NCBI RefSeq assembly: GCF_002095535.1
Contig: NZ_MLJI01000001.1
Coordinates: forward strand, 356,690-420,689
Reading direction: 5' to 3'
DNA from: Pantoea cypripedii
Lineage (GTDB): Bacteria; Pseudomonadota; Gammaproteobacteria; Enterobacterales; Enterobacteriaceae
Length of the DNA: 64,000 nt
Below, in pieces: positions 2,701-41,874 of this stretch. Every line of letters starts with the position of its first letter. Position 1 is the stretch's first letter. The notes under the pieces were generated by a model that was not told the DNA's origin, searched no databases, and saw only the letters and a program-made list of their open reading frames with translations. Both the position numbers and the translations under genes were made by a program.

Positions 2701-2706
2701 TTACAC
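2691..2706. promoter_or_regulatory. GalR/LacI-family operator-like palindrome
   Basis: GTGTAACCGTTTACAC matches the E. coli GalR/GalS operator consensus GTGKAANCGNTTNCAC at every specified position. It overlaps the stop codon of the 2701-3300 gene and lies about 275 bases upstream of the gcd start, so gcd is the likeliest target. Neither LacI-type regulator in the window is next to it. Confidence 0.55.
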
Positions 2707-3300
2707 TTCGAATAAATTGCTGCTGGTTCGCTGTTCCTGCCAGCCGCTGATATGCAATCGAGTATAGCTTTCTTCAGGCAAAACCAGACGTGAAGTGCGT
2801 AATATCACCTCTGCTTCTCTTTCGCGGAAGGAAGAGAGCATAAATGGAAAGCTGAACTTGAGATAATTTTCGCTGAAAAACTCGTCAGTCAGAACAATGC
2901 CGCTTAAGGGAAAGTTCTCAATATTTTGCCAGCGCGTACCGGGCGATGCCAGGTCATAGAGCCAGAAACGGAAATCTGACGCTCGTGACCGCAACTCAGG
3001 CCCGGCCTGTTGTAACGCATCATAGTTGATGGCCAGCCGGACATTGTCGGATCGCAAAAAGGAATAATTATCCGTTGCCTGTAAAAACTGCGTCAGCATA
3101 TTTCCCTGTAAAGGGATAATTATTAATTCTGGCATCGCCGGTAGATGGTTTTGCAAAGTAATTATGTTGCGTTCATTAAGTAATGTGTGGCTACCTTGCT
3201 CGCAATGCATAAAGGGTGCTGAATAACAGATACCCGTCAGCGCGCCATCAAAGCGGCGGATACGCTCGGTAACATAAGGGTTATATGCGTTGTTTTTCAT
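2701..3300 (-). CDS. Degenerate EAL-domain-like protein, function unknown
   Basis: 199 residues, not confidently recognised. The stretch LAINYDAL ... FWLYDLASPGTRWQNIENFP followed by LSGIVLTDEFF has the spacing of the EAL-domain region LDDFGTG...L..LPVD.IKID. The EAL signature itself and the metal-binding acidic residues of active c-di-GMP phosphodiesterases are missing. It may therefore be a YdiV/RflP-type regulator that binds protein or nucleotide without hydrolysing c-di-GMP; this is inference. No signal peptide or membrane segment. The gene is more AT-rich than gcd. An AGAG motif precedes ATG 3300. It appears monocistronic. Confidence 0.4.
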   Translation of the reverse strand: MKNNAYNPYVTERIRRFDGALTGICYSAPFMHCEQGSHTLLNERNIITLQNHLPAMPELIIIPLQGNMLTQFLQATDNYSFLRSDNVRLAINYDALQQAGPELRSRASDFRFWLYDLASPGTRWQNIENFPLSGIVLTDEFFSENYLKFSFPFMLSSFREREAEVILRTSRLVLPEESYTRLHISGWQEQRTSSNLFEV

Positions 3301-17052: not shown

Positions 17053-17961
17053 ATGTTGAATAAAAGTAGAGAATCCCGCACCTCCACCGACGATCTGGCC
17101 TTTTTCGTGCGTATCGCCACCCTCGGCAGCCTGACGGCGGCAGCACGCGAGCTGGGGCTGTCGTTACCGGCGGTAAGTAAACGGCTGAGCCAGCTGGAAT
17201 TGCGTCTTGGCGTGCAGCTGCTGCGCCGTACTACGCGTCGGCTGGAGCTGACGCCTGAGGGCAAACGTTACCTGGAAGGGGCACGTCCGCTGCTGGACCA
17301 ACTGGCGGAGCTGGAGGAGTCGGTCAGCAGCCAGACCGCCGTGCTGCGCGGTACGCTGAATATCAATGCCTCGTTTGGTTTTGGCCGCCGCCACGTCGCG
17401 CCGCTGGTGTCGCGTTTTGCCGCGCTGCACCCGGAGCTGTCACTCAGCCTGCAACTGAGCAGCCAGCCGCTCAGTTTCCTTGATGCACATATCGATATTG
17501 ATATTCGCGTCGGTGAGCCGCCGGATGCGCGGCTGATGGCACGCAAACTGCGTACCAATCCGCGTGTACTGTGTTGCGCACCTGCCTATGCCGAACGTTG
17601 TGGCCTGCCGGAGAGCGTCGCGGCGTTGGCGCAGCACAACTGCATTTTGCTGCGCCAGTACGAAAGCGATTTTGCCCTGTGGCGGCTGAGTAATGGCGAA
17701 CAGCAGTTAACGCAAAAGGTCCGCGGCACGCTGATCACCAATGACGGCGAGGTGGCGATGCAGCTGGCGCAGGATGGACATGGCATTCTGTTGCGGTCGT
17801 GGTGGGATGCGCAGCACAGCATTCACAGTGGCGAGCTGCTGCATGTGCTGCCAGCCTGGACGGCACCAGACGGCGATATCTTTGCCGTCTGGCAACCGCA
17901 GCGCCAGCTTCCGGCGCGCATCAGCGCCTTTGTTGAGTTTTTGCAGCAGGAATTACAATAA
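17053..17961 (+). CDS. dmlR: LysR-family regulator, DmlR-like
   Basis: About 302 residues. The N-terminal helix-turn-helix (DLAFFVRIATLGSLTAAARELGLSLPAVSKRLSQLE) is followed by the LysR effector domain (RGTLNINASFGFGRRHVAPL ... FDIRVG-type core). I chose ATG 17053 over a TTG at 17014; neither has a strong ribosome site. The divergent pairing with dmlA supports activation of D-malate use. The 85-base spacer would hold the shared binding sites. Confidence 0.8.
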   Translation: MLNKSRESRTSTDDLAFFVRIATLGSLTAAARELGLSLPAVSKRLSQLELRLGVQLLRRTTRRLELTPEGKRYLEGARPLLDQLAELEESVSSQTAVLRGTLNINASFGFGRRHVAPLVSRFAALHPELSLSLQLSSQPLSFLDAHIDIDIRVGEPPDARLMARKLRTNPRVLCCAPAYAERCGLPESVAALAQHNCILLRQYESDFALWRLSNGEQQLTQKVRGTLITNDGEVAMQLAQDGHGILLRSWWDAQHSIHSGELLHVLPAWTAPDGDIFAVWQPQRQLPARISAFVEFLQQELQ

Positions 17962-17971
17962 ATTTATTGAG

Positions 17972-18001
17972 TTGAGTGATTTCGCCCGGCTTCTCTATAA
18001 T
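17972..18001 (+). promoter_or_regulatory. Sigma-70-type promoter of the ATPase-PIN module
   Basis: TTGAGT (17972-17977) and a perfect TATAAT (17996-18001) are 18 bases apart, giving a start near 18008 and a leader of about 47 bases. The leader contains a seven-base stem AGCAGAT/ATCTGCT (18016-18036) and GGAGG (18045-18049) five bases before the ATG. The module thus has its own promoter and strong translation signal. Confidence 0.65.
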
Positions 18002-18054
18002 GGGCGGCTGGAGTCAGCAGATAAAATCCATCTGCTCTTCGCCTGGAGGCAATA

Positions 18055-19350
18055 ATGTTAACGCAGATTCATATTGAGAATTTTAAAAGCTATAAAAAGC
18101 AAACGCTGCATCTGGCACCGCTGACGCTGATGATTGGTGCGAACGCATCAGGTAAGAGCAACGCGCTGGAGGCCTTTCGTTTTCTTTGCTGGTTAGGACA
18201 AGGCCAGAAGCTGTCTGTGTTGAAATACCGGGTTGAGGACTCTGAAGAGATATTAAGAGGAAAGATAAGTGATCTGGGGTATCTATCTTCTCCGCAATTT
18301 GAAATTGGCTGTAGTACGGATGACGATGACTGGAATTTTTTTGAAGTTGAAATCGCTGTGCGTGATAGTGAGCTACATATTATTCATGAAACGATTCTTT
18401 CTCCAGATAAGAAAAGACCGCTTTATAGAATTATGAAACCTTCTGAAGGTGCCAGTACGCTAATTAAAGTTGCCTATAACAATTTTTCTACTCATGGCCG
18501 AATGCCGCTGGTTAACTGCACTGATAATATGCTGGTAATGAGTCAGTTGGCCAGTTCTGCCATTTTTGAGTCAGGACATAAGAAAGCACAGAAAACGCTG
18601 CCTGAAATAACAGAAAAATTTCAGACGTTACTTGAAAATACGCTGTTTCTTGATCCTGTTCCTTCTTCTATGAGAGGAGACAGTGCGCCGGATAAAAAAC
18701 TTCGAGGTAACTGTGCGAACCTTTCTGGTGTTTTGTACATTCTTTGTCAATATGATGAATTAAAATCATCGATTATTGATTTTATAAAAAGCTTACCGGA
18801 ACAGGATGTAAAAGATATTACTTTCTTCAGGGATCGGAGAGGTCAGGTTTCTCTGGAACTGGTTGAGAGTTTTGGTGGGAAAGAACGTACATGGTCGGTT
18901 GACCTTCTCTCGGATGGTACTCTGCGCGTGCTGGCTATCGCCGCTGCATTGCTTTCAGTCCCGGAAGGTTCCACTGTCGTTATCGAGGAAGTTGATAACG
19001 GTGTACATCCTTCACGCGCGCGGCAATTACTTGAGACTATGCGGAAACAAGCTAGCCTGCGTGGTGTGCGATTGCTGCTATCTACACATAACCCAGCTTT
19101 AATGGATGCTTTGCCTGACGAAGCCTTGGGTGATGTTGTGTTTTGTTACCGCGATGCAAAAGCTGGGGATAGCTGCCTGGTCAGGCTGGCTGATTTAGAT
19201 GATTTTCCGGGTTTAATTACTCAGGGGCCATTAGGTGAGTTAGTGACGAATGGGGTTGTTGACCGTTTCGTGAAAACCGCTTCTTCTTCTGAAGAACGTA
19301 AGCAAAAAGCCATGGCGTGGCTGGAAAGTTTTCAGGGAGAGAAGAAGTGA
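18055..19350 (+). CDS. OLD/RecF-like AAA ATPase of a two-gene defence-type module
   Basis: 431 residues of the ABC/SMC-like AAA_15/AAA_21 group. Walker A GANASGKSN is at residues 28-36 after the FKSYKKQTLHLAPLTLMIG lead-in; the signature-like LLSDGTL is at 284-290; Walker B VVIEEVDN is at 308-315; the switch histidine is in STHNP, 343-347. Between the two halves lies a ~240-residue insertion in place of a coiled coil. It has no C-terminal TOPRIM domain, unlike OLD nucleases, so the nuclease role would fall to the PIN-like partner. The stop codon overlaps the partner's GTG start. The region is much richer in A+T than its neighbours, which suggests horizontal gain. A defence role is inference. 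Confidence 0.8.
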   Translation: MLTQIHIENFKSYKKQTLHLAPLTLMIGANASGKSNALEAFRFLCWLGQGQKLSVLKYRVEDSEEILRGKISDLGYLSSPQFEIGCSTDDDDWNFFEVEIAVRDSELHIIHETILSPDKKRPLYRIMKPSEGASTLIKVAYNNFSTHGRMPLVNCTDNMLVMSQLASSAIFESGHKKAQKTLPEITEKFQTLLENTLFLDPVPSSMRGDSAPDKKLRGNCANLSGVLYILCQYDELKSSIIDFIKSLPEQDVKDITFFRDRRGQVSLELVESFGGKERTWSVDLLSDGTLRVLAIAAALLSVPEGSTVVIEEVDNGVHPSRARQLLETMRKQASLRGVRLLLSTHNPALMDALPDEALGDVVFCYRDAKAGDSCLVRLADLDDFPGLITQGPLGELVTNGVVDRFVKTASSSEERKQKAMAWLESFQGEKK

Positions 19351-19838
19351 GTGCGATATGTATTATTGATACCAGCGTATTTTTAAATATCCTTAATGTT
19401 CCGGGAAAGAACGATCGCCATGAGGAAATGATGGGGGCATTTAAAGATTATATTAGCTGTGGCGCTTCCTTTATCTTGCCTATGGCGACGATTATTGAAA
19501 CCGGAAACCATATTGCACAAAATGGTGATGGGGATCTGCGTCGTGAAACAGCTAAAAGATTCTGTGATCTGGTCAAAGACTCAATGGAAAATACCGCTCC
19601 TTTCCGAGTTTCTGCATTCCCTACACCGCATGAAGTATTAGAATGGCTTGATACCTTTCCCGACCATGCCGGAAGAAACAAAAAGATCGGAGAGGGAACC
19701 AGTCTGGGTGATCTCTCCATTATTGAAGAATTCAATAAATGCAGACGAGTTTCATCTATGTCTGAGATCTTCATCTGGTCACTTGATGCAGATTTAGAAG
19801 CGTATCATTTTAAACCTGCGATACCCAGACGACATTAA
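19347..19838 (+). CDS. PIN-like nuclease partner of the ATPase
   Basis: 163 residues from GTG 19347, which overlaps the ATPase stop (GTGA) and has GGGAG (19335-19339) seven bases upstream. The sequence fits a PIN-domain fold: CIIDTSVFLN (Asp8) on the first strand, IIETGNH (Glu51), SLGDLSIIEE (Asp122) and FIWSLDADL (Asp147) supply the four acidic positions that bind metal in PIN ribonucleases. It is not a typical VapC in length or partner. As the likely effector it could cleave RNA or DNA when the ATPase is triggered. The family assignment is from motif spacing only. Confidence 0.65.
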   Translation: MSAICIIDTSVFLNILNVPGKNDRHEEMMGAFKDYISCGASFILPMATIIETGNHIAQNGDGDLRRETAKRFCDLVKDSMENTAPFRVSAFPTPHEVLEWLDTFPDHAGRNKKIGEGTSLGDLSIIEEFNKCRRVSSMSEIFIWSLDADLEAYHFKPAIPRRH

Positions 19839-19855
19839 TTGAACTGGCTTTGAAA

Positions 19856-19879
19856 AATGGCGGCCATGATGCCGCCATT
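19856..19879. terminator. Bidirectional terminator between PIN gene and sugar porter
   Basis: AATGGCGGC (19856-19864) and GCCGCCATT (19871-19879) form a nine-base stem with loop CATGAT. On the minus strand it is followed by TTTTTC, giving a good terminator for the MFS gene. On the plus strand it can also end the ATPase-PIN transcript, though without a T-tract. Confidence 0.7.
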
Positions 19880-19886
19880 AAACGCT

Positions 19887-21386
19887 TTACTCCTCCGCTG
19901 TTTGCTGGCGGCGCTGCTGGAGCGGGTAAAACTCTCCGGCTTTCAGTGAAGTTTCAATTTCTTCCAGCGAGCGGCCTTTGGTTTCCGGCATCAGGAAAAA
20001 GACAAACACAAAGCCGAGCAGATTCAGCAGTGCGTAGAACCACATGGCACCGCCAATTCCCAGCAGGTTGACCATCGACAGTGCGGTGGCGGTCAGCAGC
20101 AGGTTAGAACCCCACAGCATCCCGGCGTGCAGGCTGGTGGCTTTCTCACGAATACCCAGCGGATACAGCTCTGAACCCATCAGCCAGCCAATCACCTGAA
20201 TACCGCCGGAGTTAAACACCATAAAGCCAAACAGGCAGAGCACGATCAACAGGCTATGGCCGCCGCCGTGTGCATCGAGACGAAACACCGTGCCCAGCAG
20301 TACCAGGCTGACGATGGCGCCTGGCATCATCCACAGGGTTAAAGCGCGGCGGCCAACATGGTCAACCAGCAGTTTGCCGATGATGGTCAGCGTCAGATAA
20401 ATCACCGCCACGCCCAGTGCTGAATACAGTGCCGCATCACGGCTGAATCCGGCGTTGGTGAGAAAGGTGGGCGTGTAGTAAATCATCATTTCAATGCCGG
20501 AAAGCTGCGTAAAGGCGGCGATACCCAGCCCTACCAGCAATGCCGGACGCAGCCAGGGCTGCTTCAGATCACTCCAGCTCGCAACTGCCTTACGTTCCAC
20601 TTTGGCGTGCACGCGCTGGATATCGCGAATCTCCTGACGCACCTGCTTTTCCGTGTCGCGCACGCTATCCAGCGCCAGATGGGCCTCTTTCAGGCGTTTC
20701 TGACCGACCAGCCAGCGCGGGCTTTCAGGCAGCGGCAGCATTCCCAGTAGCAGGATCACCGCCGGAATGGCGGCGACGGCAAACATGGTGCGCCAGCTCC
20801 AGATATCCTGCATAAAGGTGCCAACCAGCGCGGCGGTCACAATGCCGACGCCAATTGAGATGTTGAAGAAGGTCACCAGACGGCCACGGCGGTCCGGGGG
20901 AGCCAGCTCGGCGATATACACCGGGACGATTTGCGAGGCACCACCGACGGCAAAGCCCAGCACCAGACGTGCCACACCGAGCCAGACGGCATTGGGGGAC
21001 AGACCGGAGCCGATCACCCCGACCGCAAAAATCGCCGCCACAATCATCACCGTGTAGCGACGGCCGAGCTGGCTGGAGAGACGTCCACAGCTGAGTGCAC
21101 CCACCACCGCGCCGACGAGGATCGCACTGGTCACCAGCTCCTGTGCATGCGAAGAAAGGTGGAAATCATGGGTAATCTGCAACAGTGCGCCGGAGATAAT
21201 GCCGGTGTCATAGCCATAGAGAAAACCAGCAATGGCGGCGATGGCGGTCGCTGTCAATAAAAAGGCATCTGCGCTGAGAAAGCGGCTGTTTTCTACGGTT
21301 GCGCTTGCGGATAACTTTTCATTGTCAGCCTGAGCAGACGGGGTTTCCGGCGAATATCGCCAGGTTTTATTTTCTGATGTAGGCAT
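19887..21386 (-). CDS. MFS sugar porter (SP family)
   Basis: 499 residues and 12 membrane segments. Sugar-porter hallmarks are present: LYGYDTGIISGAL in segment 1, LGRRYTVM and DRRGRLV loop motifs, PESPRWLVGQKR after segment 6, and PETKGRSLEEIE at the end, as in GalP, XylE, AraE and IolT. The hydrophilic N-terminal extension is about 45 residues. I chose ATG 21386 because AAGGA precedes it by five bases; an upstream in-frame start at 21449 lacks a ribosome site. It imports a monosaccharide or polyol by proton symport; the ligand is not determinable here. Confidence 0.85.
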   Translation of the reverse strand: MPTSENKTWRYSPETPSAQADNEKLSASATVENSRFLSADAFLLTATAIAAIAGFLYGYDTGIISGALLQITHDFHLSSHAQELVTSAILVGAVVGALSCGRLSSQLGRRYTVMIVAAIFAVGVIGSGLSPNAVWLGVARLVLGFAVGGASQIVPVYIAELAPPDRRGRLVTFFNISIGVGIVTAALVGTFMQDIWSWRTMFAVAAIPAVILLLGMLPLPESPRWLVGQKRLKEAHLALDSVRDTEKQVRQEIRDIQRVHAKVERKAVASWSDLKQPWLRPALLVGLGIAAFTQLSGIEMMIYYTPTFLTNAGFSRDAALYSALGVAVIYLTLTIIGKLLVDHVGRRALTLWMMPGAIVSLVLLGTVFRLDAHGGGHSLLIVLCLFGFMVFNSGGIQVIGWLMGSELYPLGIREKATSLHAGMLWGSNLLLTATALSMVNLLGIGGAMWFYALLNLLGFVFVFFLMPETKGRSLEEIETSLKAGEFYPLQQRRQQTAEE

Positions 21387-22055
21387 AGTATTCCTTGCAG
21401 ATGAATTTATTTTTATGCAGGGGTACAGTGCGGCCGAAATAATCGGCATTCGATCCTTGATATTATTTTGATGAGATAAAGGTATAACATGATGTGTGAT
21501 TTATGTCACATTTTCCCGTGGATAGATGGCGAATTATAGCGGTTATTCTGCTAATTCTATAAAAATAAATCGGCATAATTAATTGATATAAATGATTTTT
21601 ATTTTATAAAAATTAATATGTTCTGAATTTCCTTTCTCAATTCTGGAATATTGAGTTAAATAAAATTTCATCAGTCCGATTCGGACAAAATAATGTTTTA
21701 CTCTCCATGCTCTCACCAGAAAATATCACTGCGTACGCCGCTGCGCTGAGCACAGATATTACAACCCTTCTTTTCCCGCGCAGGCGCGATGATCATGCCA
21801 TGGGATGATGTTTTGATTATTTGTAATCAACATTGAGTGTTTGTGAGCATGATCAAACAAATTTATCCGGCCATCACCTATAAAGTAGCCCTGTCAGTGC
21901 GTAATTTTGCTCTTTGTTGAGCGATTTAAATCATTCTTACCCTGGTGGCGATACCCGGTGCTCAGACACCCGTCAAAATAACAGACGCCACCCTTAATAA
22001 CGGCGCGCGTGAAGCCCAGCGCGTGCCACGACCCTACGTTATCGATGAGGCTGAA
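21387..22055. other. Divergent regulatory region of sugar porter and SSS operon
   Basis: About 670 bases, strongly AT-rich, no credible gene. It carries a CRP-type promoter for the rightward operon (21842-21884) and a stem TTGATTA/TAATCAA (about 21813-21830). The rightward transcript would have a leader of about 165 bases before ATG 22056; part of it can be read as an in-frame N-terminal extension from GTG 21945. Confidence 0.5.
21842..21884 (+). promoter_or_regulatory. CRP site and class II promoter for the SSS operon
   Basis: TGTGA-GCATGA-TCAAA (21842-21857) matches the CRP consensus at nine of its ten specified bases. TATAAA (21879-21884) predicts a transcription start near 21891, which puts the CRP site centre at -41.5, the exact class II position. 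Catabolite activation of the symporter-sialidase-SDR operon is therefore likely. Confidence 0.6.
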
Positions 22056-40604: not shown

Positions 40605-41729
40605 TTAAAAATAATAAATTTCCAGATTTTTAGGGAGCGTTTCCGGATGGTTCAGTGGCGTAAAGGTGGCCCCTTGTTCAATGCCGAGACGGCATGGGTA
40701 GTCATGAGTAACCAGAGAGTGCAGGGTGGCGCCACTTGCGAGGGTAATCTGCGGAATAAAACCGGTGGCCTCATCCAGGCGCGGTAAACAAATTTCATCA
40801 ACAACGGCTTCCTTCCCCATCTTCAGGTTTTGCCCCAATAGCTTCAATGAACCATGGACCGTTGAAGATAAAATTTCATTGTTTTGACCGCCCAGAATGC
40901 CCCCCTGCCTGACAACAGAATGGTTGTGGATAAGCGTATTACTATCTCTGGTATAAATAAATTCCACCGTGGAATCATTTATCTCTGTCTTGCCAATATT
41001 ACTGTATACGGCTTTTGCGCTGCTTTTTTCCACCAGAATATCGCCTGCACGATTCAGGAGATTTCCGGTTACAGTGGAGTCGATGATTTCAATATTCCGT
41101 GTGGGAAGCCCTTCCTCATAAAAGAGAATTGCCACATTGCCATATATTTTGCATTTATTTTCACACCTGATGCTGTTATCAACATTTTCAATCGCTACGT
41201 GGGATAAATTTTCTCCCCCGATCGCAGGTTTTAAAAGGTCTTTATAATAATCAACTTCACTCATGTTGAATTGATAAACAGCATCATCGCTATCTTTTAC
41301 CGGACAAATCCACTCATAAAATCCGGACTGCGGCATCAGTTTCACATTAGTGTAATCCTGGCTTCTGATCTCCGTTGTTATTAAATTAATGGCACCATGG
41401 TAACTTTCTACTTTCCCCTCAATTAAGCAATGTTCAGCCTCAGTGAGGTGATTTGGTGTATAGATGATGCCCTTTATCTCACAATTATTGAGTTTTATTT
41501 TTCCATCCTGTGAAGAAATGACCTCCCAGATATGCTGTTTAGTATTTTTAATGCCAACCTTACAATTATTTAGGGTGATGTTATTCGTAGCTGAAATACT
41601 AAGATCGACGACATGATTACTCACATCCAGGGGTTCGTAATTCCAGCTTATTAGCTGCACAAACCGCCACTGAATATCAGCATTATTAGCAACCGTACCG
41701 TATGAAGCCGAAACCGATCCCACGCTCAT
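40605..41729 (-). CDS. Orphan protein with right-handed beta-helix-like repeats
   Basis: 374 residues, not recognised. Short repeats such as NITLNNCKVGI, KIKLNNCEIKGI, NIEIIDSTVTGNLLN, KTEINDSTVEFIY and NEILSSTVHGSLKLL recur about every 20-25 residues, as in parallel beta-helix proteins with Asn/Ser/Thr ladders. There is no signal peptide or catalytic motif. ATG 41729 has AAGGA eight bases upstream. The coding sequence is clearly more AT-rich than its neighbours, suggesting recent gain. It could be a secreted effector or surface-modifying protein exported by a specialised route, but nothing in the window shows such a route. Confidence 0.5.
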   Translation of the reverse strand: MSVGSVSASYGTVANNADIQWRFVQLISWNYEPLDVSNHVVDLSISATNNITLNNCKVGIKNTKQHIWEVISSQDGKIKLNNCEIKGIIYTPNHLTEAEHCLIEGKVESYHGAINLITTEIRSQDYTNVKLMPQSGFYEWICPVKDSDDAVYQFNMSEVDYYKDLLKPAIGGENLSHVAIENVDNSIRCENKCKIYGNVAILFYEEGLPTRNIEIIDSTVTGNLLNRAGDILVEKSSAKAVYSNIGKTEINDSTVEFIYTRDSNTLIHNHSVVRQGGILGGQNNEILSSTVHGSLKLLGQNLKMGKEAVVDEICLPRLDEATGFIPQITLASGATLHSLVTHDYPCRLGIEQGATFTPLNHPETLPKNLEIYYF

Positions 41730-41874
41730 CAATTCATTCCTTTGGAGTATGTAGCCGCACTGGCGAACAGGTGAGGGAAGTGTACTAAGGTCGAAAAGAA
41801 ATTAAAGCGAGGCTGGAACGGTGGGAGTCATTTTCACAGAAATATCATAACTATTCAGGTTTAATATCGATGCG

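Follow-up and report, generated by a model that had tools for sequence, protein, structure and literature searches.

A stand-alone copy of PDC-M07, a candidate defence system pairing an ABC-type ATPase with a predicted PIN-fold protein, in Pantoea cypripedii

A 64,000-nt stretch of the Pantoea cypripedii genome (contig NZ_MLJI01000001.1, positions 356,690 to 420,689; hereafter the window) carries, among metabolic genes, a short AT-rich segment with two overlapping genes, here called A and B. The locus raises the question of what kind of system an ATPase coupled to a putative nuclease forms, and what such a pair does in this setting. The pair is a copy of an already catalogued candidate system, PDC-M07, and its kind is known. 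Many members of its lineage are embedded in restriction operons; in the window it stands alone, with both frames intact, in a genome without type I restriction-modification (R-M) or BREX markers. The segment and its coding features are as follows (ABC, ATP-binding cassette; pLDDT, predicted local distance difference test).

~17951..19885, no strand assigned: AT-rich inserted segment with the module, ~1.94 kb, breakpoints against relatives L089, L090 and L091
18055..19350, + strand: gene A, 431-residue ABC/OLD-type ATPase, ATG start (PADLOC PDC-M07A; Pfam AAA_21/AAA_15)
18136..18162, + strand: Walker A GANASGKSN, residues 28-36 of A; G28, N30, A31, K34 and N36 invariant in 32 members
18904..18924, + strand: ABC signature LLSDGTL, residues 284-290 of A; L285-L290 invariant in 32 members
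18976..18999, + strand: Walker B VVIEEVDN (Glu-Glu form), residues 308-315 of A; E311, E312, D314 and N315 invariant in 32 members
19087..19089, + strand: His345 of A, invariant in 32 aligned members
19347..19838, + strand: gene B, 163-residue predicted PIN-fold protein (PADLOC PDC-M07B), GTG start on the TGA of A; model pLDDT 94.2
19368..19370, + strand: Asp8 of B, first acidic position, after strand 1 (3-7 in the model), invariant in 40/40
19497..19499, + strand: Glu51 of B, second acidic position, in helix 46-57, invariant in 40/40
19710..19712, + strand: Asp122 of B, third acidic position, in helix 120-135, invariant in 40/40
19785..19787, + strand: Asp147 of B, fourth acidic position, after strand 140-144, invariant in 40/40

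Protein A matches PDC-M07A of PADLOC 2.0.0 (PDLC04392) with an E-value of 1.2e-203 and 675 bits, residues 1-430 aligning with 1-431 of the 432 model positions, and protein B matches PDC-M07B (PDLC04395) at E 1.6e-69 (residues 1-156 on 1-158 of 161). The two genes by which this candidate anti-phage system is recognised, an A-type ATPase and an adjacent B-type partner, are both present. The initial annotation had proposed an undescribed defence system, a claim left open to refutation by any existing catalogue match; the PDC-M07 entries, aligned over nearly full length, are such a match, and pairs of OLD-ABC ATPases with PIN nucleases are in print as well, going by the available sections of PMC12839542. 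The window pair is not distinct in kind from PDC-M07, its copy standing alone. PDC families stem, according to the accessible part of the text, from the 'guilt-by-embedding' preprint of Payne et al. (PMC12988326), and going by its name PDC-M07 would belong to the same set; the name itself gave no match in the literature searched. Among the 120 homologues of B listed, the next best is 67-68% identical.

The evidence from A supports an OLD/RecF/SMC-type ATPase without a TOPRIM domain. AAA_21 is matched at 116.2 bits, and none of the nine Pfam matches at E <=1 is a TOPRIM. The predicted structure has an SMC/Rad50/PtuA fold that matches ABC heads, with short C-terminal helices after the head; 86 residues lie beyond His345, a conserved stretch at about 384-407 among them, and the longest helix of the model is under 25 residues, which leaves no long coiled coil. 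K34, S286, G288, E311, E312 and H345 are invariant across the 32 aligned members. Walker A (28-36), signature (284-290) and Walker B (308-315) lie where the initial annotation had placed them, and its description of an OLD/RecF-like ATPase without TOPRIM agrees with the Pfam matches and the ABC-head model.

Gene B is coupled to A through a 4-base overlap, GTGA, at 19347, as first described, and its 163-residue product is predicted to adopt a PIN fold. This assignment draws on relatives and on the predicted fold, not on the protein's own sequence alone, because a profile of B searched against the sequences of solved structures gave no PIN chain among its matches. The window's own B has no PIN-family match at E <=0.01 (Pfam PIN scores 12.6 bits, E 0.22, below the cutoff of 23.6); across 40 B members, PIN_12 was found in 10, PIN in 6 and PIN_4 in 1 at E <=0.01, counts in which overlaps are not separated. 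Among the Foldseek matches listed for the predicted fold, the best solved structures are VapC toxins, with modest E-values (best 1.2e-3, none <=1e-3). The PIN-like spacing of four acidic positions had been the original ground for the assignment; all four (D8, E51, D122 and D147) proved invariant in 40 aligned members, and the model with VapC toxins as its best solved matches points the same way.

Homologues of B numbered 1052 at E <=1e-3 among 1061 candidates. All genome-locus counts given here refer to the best 80 of 302 loci, so that fractions of embedded pairs describe the nearer relatives. A, whole or in part, lies directly upstream of B in 78 of the 80, B standing at a contig edge in the other two. 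The two open reading frames (ORFs) overlap in 75 of 81 measurable pairs, five plasmid loci included; genes were called by a simple longest-ORF script in 76 of the 80 loci (L040, L050, L074 and L081 lack one complete gene), and B starts in relatives were taken closest to the expected position. Pairwise distances of A and B correlate at r 0.87 over 3081 pairs. By each of these measures the pair is conserved together, as its description as a module implied. In L003, L040, L042 and L047, mostly on draft contigs, A or B is apparently broken or shortened, as would fit either a costly module that is often lost or errors of assembly.

The loci are spread over Pseudomonadota, Cyanobacteriota, Thermodesulfobacteriota, Chloroflexota, Bacteroidota, Rhodothermota, Verrucomicrobiota, Cloacimonadota and Myxococcota, as well as archaea of the Methanothrix group. 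The pair is also present on ten plasmid records (four typed conjugative, three mobilizable), and one 9.1-kb mobilizable Acinetobacter plasmid carries it as a stand-alone pair. Of 61 genus genomes searched for A at E <=1e-30, and of 394 genomes sampled from the order at E <=1e-80 with few candidates scored per genome, one each was positive, in both cases the P. cypripedii genome itself; no DNA match was found in E. coli genomes.

The genomic context of relatives is one of defence. The pair lies inside a recognised host system in 24 of the 80 loci: type I R-M in 14, BREX in 8, Wadjet in 1 and a cluster of two helicases in 1. Host systems were identified with the chosen references among the proteins scanned, and hosts of other kinds may have gone unnoticed. 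Plasmids of Photobacterium damselae and Vibrio campbellii carry the pair in the gene order hsdM-hsdS-A-B-hsdR-sprT, with ends overlapping from hsdM through hsdR. Ten R-M loci (L002-L008, L010, L013 and L014) have hsd genes similar to those of the plasmids; hsdS ends at the start of A in nine of these (not L010), and hsdR comes after B in nine (with one ORF between in L007 and L013), the contig of L014 ending earlier. Four cyanobacterial R-M loci have hsd genes unlike those of the plasmids, three with an EcoEI-type R gene downstream (L026, L041 and L045) and one with hsdM and hsdS only (L040). Among the BREX loci the order brxC-A-B-pglX is found in L048, L049, L059, L060 and L072; in L071, L074 and L081 pglX is directly downstream and the contig begins before any brxC. 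In Parathalassolituus penaei (L012, 5317-11656) jetC and jetD of Wadjet directly flank the pair, and in L046 (6404-13761) it is enclosed by two helicases, one of the DEAD type resembling SngC/BrxHI and one of the SNF2 type resembling DpdE/ZorD. Wadjet is not mentioned as a host for such pairs in the portions of the literature covered. Counted outside the embedded loci are L030, with an HsdR-type gene ~1.1 kb upstream, and L038 and L057, with a helicase or HsdR-like match >5 kb away. Among adjacent ORFs a single PADLOC family matches as many as 10 of 70 in one tally and 5 of 74 in another, compared with at most 2 of the 139 control ORFs, which lie >=6.5 kb away (139 out of 163, with no more than three per locus); each tally lists its first 25 families.

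A tree was built of 79 pairs (the window, 73 genome loci and five plasmid loci; L042, L047 and L069 skipped as short) by a quick search without bootstrap. On it the R-M label changes at least six times and the BREX label at least twice on starred branches, numbers that missed labels would inflate; these changes suggest repeated entry into, or exit from, R-M and BREX operons. The window copy falls in an 18-row clade (Shimodaira-Hasegawa-like approximate likelihood ratio test 97) comprising 11 R-M-embedded rows (two of them plasmids), six rows, the window included, with no host system found, and one Wadjet row. In its own genome the markers HSDR_N, Methylase_S and PglZ, positive in 9, 9 and 2 of 14 control genomes, respectively, gave no match, Wadjet not being among the markers sought; two partial N6_Mtase matches exceed the cutoff.

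The pair is fairly likely to be a working stand-alone PDC-M07 system, in which an ABC ATPase acts as sensor and switch and a VapC-like PIN nuclease acts as effector, cleaving RNA and leading to abortive infection. The computed basis consists of the predicted folds, the intact motifs, the conserved pairing, the absence of the insert from relatives and the kin embedded in defence operons. For sensing, activation and RNA target, the guide is analogy with PtuAB, PARIS and especially WonAB, as described in the available text of PMC12137116. A, with its SMC/PtuA-type head, would probably dimerise via its nucleotide sites and serve as sensor and ATP switch for the PIN effector B, which it would keep or position inactive before infection. 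A phage anti-restriction protein or a replication product might be sensed by A, these being the first trigger candidates because the pair recurs beside DNA-targeting systems. ATP binding or hydrolysis by A may then free B to cut host RNA (tRNA or rRNA), whereupon translation would stop and infection would be aborted. The earlier proposal of a PIN-like nuclease as effector stands as far as the predicted fold and the invariant acidic residues go; the effector role itself is argued from analogy.

Comparable modules have been described. In 594 taxa that have BREX or a related system, OLD-ABC ATPases are reported paired with HNH, PD-(D/E)XK and PIN nucleases, and many of these pairs are read as backup suicidal effectors of BREX-type systems (PMC12839542, sections available). 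The OLD-ABC plus PIN endoRNase modules of BREX/BR systems have the same domain pairing as A and B, namely an AAA_21-type head without TOPRIM and, in the predicted structure of B, a four-acid PIN fold; the modules in the portion of PMC12839542 covered are likened to PDC-M07 by this pairing, not sequence by sequence. Relatives of PDC-M07 too lie between brxC and pglX, whereas the window copy is outside any BREX locus, in a genome without a PglZ match. WonAB, as far as the available text of PMC12137116 describes it, is likewise an OLD-type ABC ATPase with a separate nuclease; it aborts infection by halting translation and needs its ATPase for toxicity. By description, however, the pair to which WonAB is related has a novel restriction-enzyme fold instead of PIN. 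PIN-containing anti-phage systems requiring their catalytic residues have been validated as DS-3 and DS-5 of DefensePredictor (PMC13092281, accessible part). DS-3 is a single protein; DS-5 resembles A and B in having two proteins, but the partner there has DUF5830 and an AcrIF4-like domain and is not an ABC ATPase. PARIS resembles the pair in joining an ABC ATPase sensor to a separate effector, the tRNA-cutting AriB.

Several observations weigh against an RNA-cleaving abortive-infection system. The references used revealed no host defence system in 56 of the 80 loci, some of which end at contig edges, and the control ORFs hold defence genes too, 133 PADLOC families matching at least one of the 139. 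No relative of B was found in phage records and none of A in viral contigs, the latter by a single-sequence scan that reaches close relatives only. The literature searched, which excludes bioRxiv preprints, yielded no experiment on the pair or its family. Searches of the genome with type I R-M and BREX marker families were negative, so that there is no such system for the pair to back up. PIN domains can also cut DNA, for which reason RNA is named here only as the presumed target.

Should the proposed mechanism be right, a PIN RNase would join TOPRIM, HNH and restriction endonuclease effectors of OLD-type ABC sensors. Embedded in its kin and alone here, PDC-M07 makes it testable whether such modules are dependent on a host system or independent, and the window copy, whose genome shows no markers of type I R-M or BREX, offers a clean natural case. 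A bolder and doubtful extension would make PDC-M07 a portable 'anti-anti-restriction' alarm, in which direct recognition by A of phage inhibitors of DNA-targeting immunity would set off the PIN RNase. Such an alarm would explain why the pair was inserted repeatedly into unrelated operons, namely type I R-M of two kinds, BREX, Wadjet and the helicase cluster, and the window copy would then show it functioning without a guarded system.

Other explanations are less probable still. The VapC toxins that are the closest solved folds of B, together with the arrangement of two short overlapping genes found also on plasmids, would suit a toxin-antitoxin addiction module of VapBC type, with B as toxin, A doing no more than restrain it, and the carrier DNA stabilised. 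Such a module is improbable: A, a 431-residue ATPase with invariant catalytic residues, is unlike a small DNA-binding antitoxin, its gene precedes that of B, placement inside R-M, BREX and Wadjet operons would be odd for mere addiction, and WonAB, another ATPase-nuclease pair, requires its ATPase for toxicity (PMC12137116, available text). A DNA-directed device, with A as a Rad50/SMC-like scanner and B as a FEN-like PIN that cuts the DNA of phages or plasmids alongside R-M and Wadjet, is quite unlikely given that VapC toxins are the best matches of B, that FEN-type proteins number none among the 50 matches listed per search (one possible beyond them), and that no helix in the model of A is long enough for a long coiled coil. 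That the pair is an idle orphan, a type I R-M accessory left without its partners, is very improbable: R-M embedding of 11 of the 17 other rows of its clade and the missing HSDR_N and Methylase_S matches would agree with it, against which neither reading frame is broken, the conserved catalytic residues are retained, the insert spares only a short leader and tail, and other copies, such as that on the Acinetobacter plasmid, stand alone too.

Membership of several known systems was considered and rejected. For PARIS, the partner is PIN and not the TOPRIM protein AriB, and A matches the AriA model at E 1.2e-30 and 105.5 bits, far below its 675 bits for PDC-M07A. For Septu (PtuA and PtuB), the partner is PIN and not the HNH protein PtuB, and A scores 23.7 bits against an NCBIfam PtuA cutoff of 500; retron Eco7/Ec78/Ec83 effectors, like that of Septu, are HNH, unlike the PIN of the window pair. 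Gabija and OLD classes 1-2 are excluded by the lack of a TOPRIM match and the model of an ABC head with short C-terminal helices, and MADS by a MAD3 score of 71.8 bits against an NCBIfam cutoff of 420. VapBC type II has VapB antitoxin as partner, whereas the gene before B encodes the ABC ATPase and the remainder of the insert is too small for a typical antitoxin gene. A type I R-M accessory in cis is rejected on its lysR-family and sugar-porter neighbours and the genome without HSDR_N or Methylase_S matches.

The segment is an insert absent from relatives. Alignments of L089, L090 and L091 to the window stop at 17950-17958 and restart at 19886-19910, and in these three the junction is clean, lysR nearly abutting the sugar-porter gene. 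None of the 24 loci compared from genus relatives (L089-L112) has the insert. In 14 loci (L092-L105) the sugar-porter gene is also missing, lysR joining sequence that matches 21806-21814 onward, and in seven (L106-L112) there is no match downstream of lysR within the available stretch. The sugar-porter region, 19887-21811 of the window, is itself absent at the same spot in 14 of the 24. Because that gene is missing too, the site between lysR and downstream sequence changed content more than once. The greater AT-richness first noted for the pair is evident in the insert's GC content of 43.4% (window, 56.6%) and in third-codon-position GC (GC3) of 0.39 for A and 0.35 for B, compared with 0.69 for LysR and 0.67 for the sugar porter. 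No direct repeat of >=10 bases, as a target-site duplication, was found across the two insert ends, and the window has no tRNA or Rfam match. Upstream of the pair lie a tartrate dehydrogenase gene on the opposite strand (TIGR02089, score above cutoff) and the lysR-family gene; downstream is the convergent sugar-porter gene (major facilitator superfamily, MFS). The flanking genes scanned, three in number, have metabolic or regulatory roles.

Outside A and B the insert comprises a leader of ~100 nt and a tail of 47 nt, with the following candidate expression signals.

17972..18001, + strand: sigma-70-like promoter TTGAGT-18-TATAAT, in the insert, 10/12 matches
18016..18036, + strand: perfect inverted repeat of 7 bp, loop 7, in the 5' leader of A, candidate operator or RNA hairpin
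18045..18049, + strand: ribosome-binding site GGAGG of A, by direct reading of the sequence
19856..19879, no strand assigned: hairpin, stem of 9 bp, in the gap that separates B from the convergent sugar-porter gene, z -3.40 (+) and -2.89 (-)

The promoter is plausible and suggestive only, since the scan returned 4 sites compared with 3.2 +/- 1.9 in shuffles; of the promoter attributed to the pair initially, the motif is present and an excess over chance is not. The leader inverted repeat was equalled in 3% of 300 mononucleotide shuffles and its RNA fold has a z of -1.11; as a possible operator or hairpin it is statistically weak and not convincing. None of 200 shuffles was as stable as the downstream hairpin on the + strand, which makes a bidirectional terminator possible; the terminator reported earlier therefore survives as a stable hairpin, which the scan did not call as a terminator and which has no U-run after it on the + strand.

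Two further places in the window differ in composition from their surroundings. At 40605-41732 a 375-residue ORF edges a 1-kb block of 42% GC with GC-richer neighbours. At 2701-3300 a 199-residue ORF lies in a low-GC block (46-49%) between two ORFs, which presumably encode a membrane pyrroloquinoline quinone (PQQ)-type dehydrogenase and an MFS transporter.
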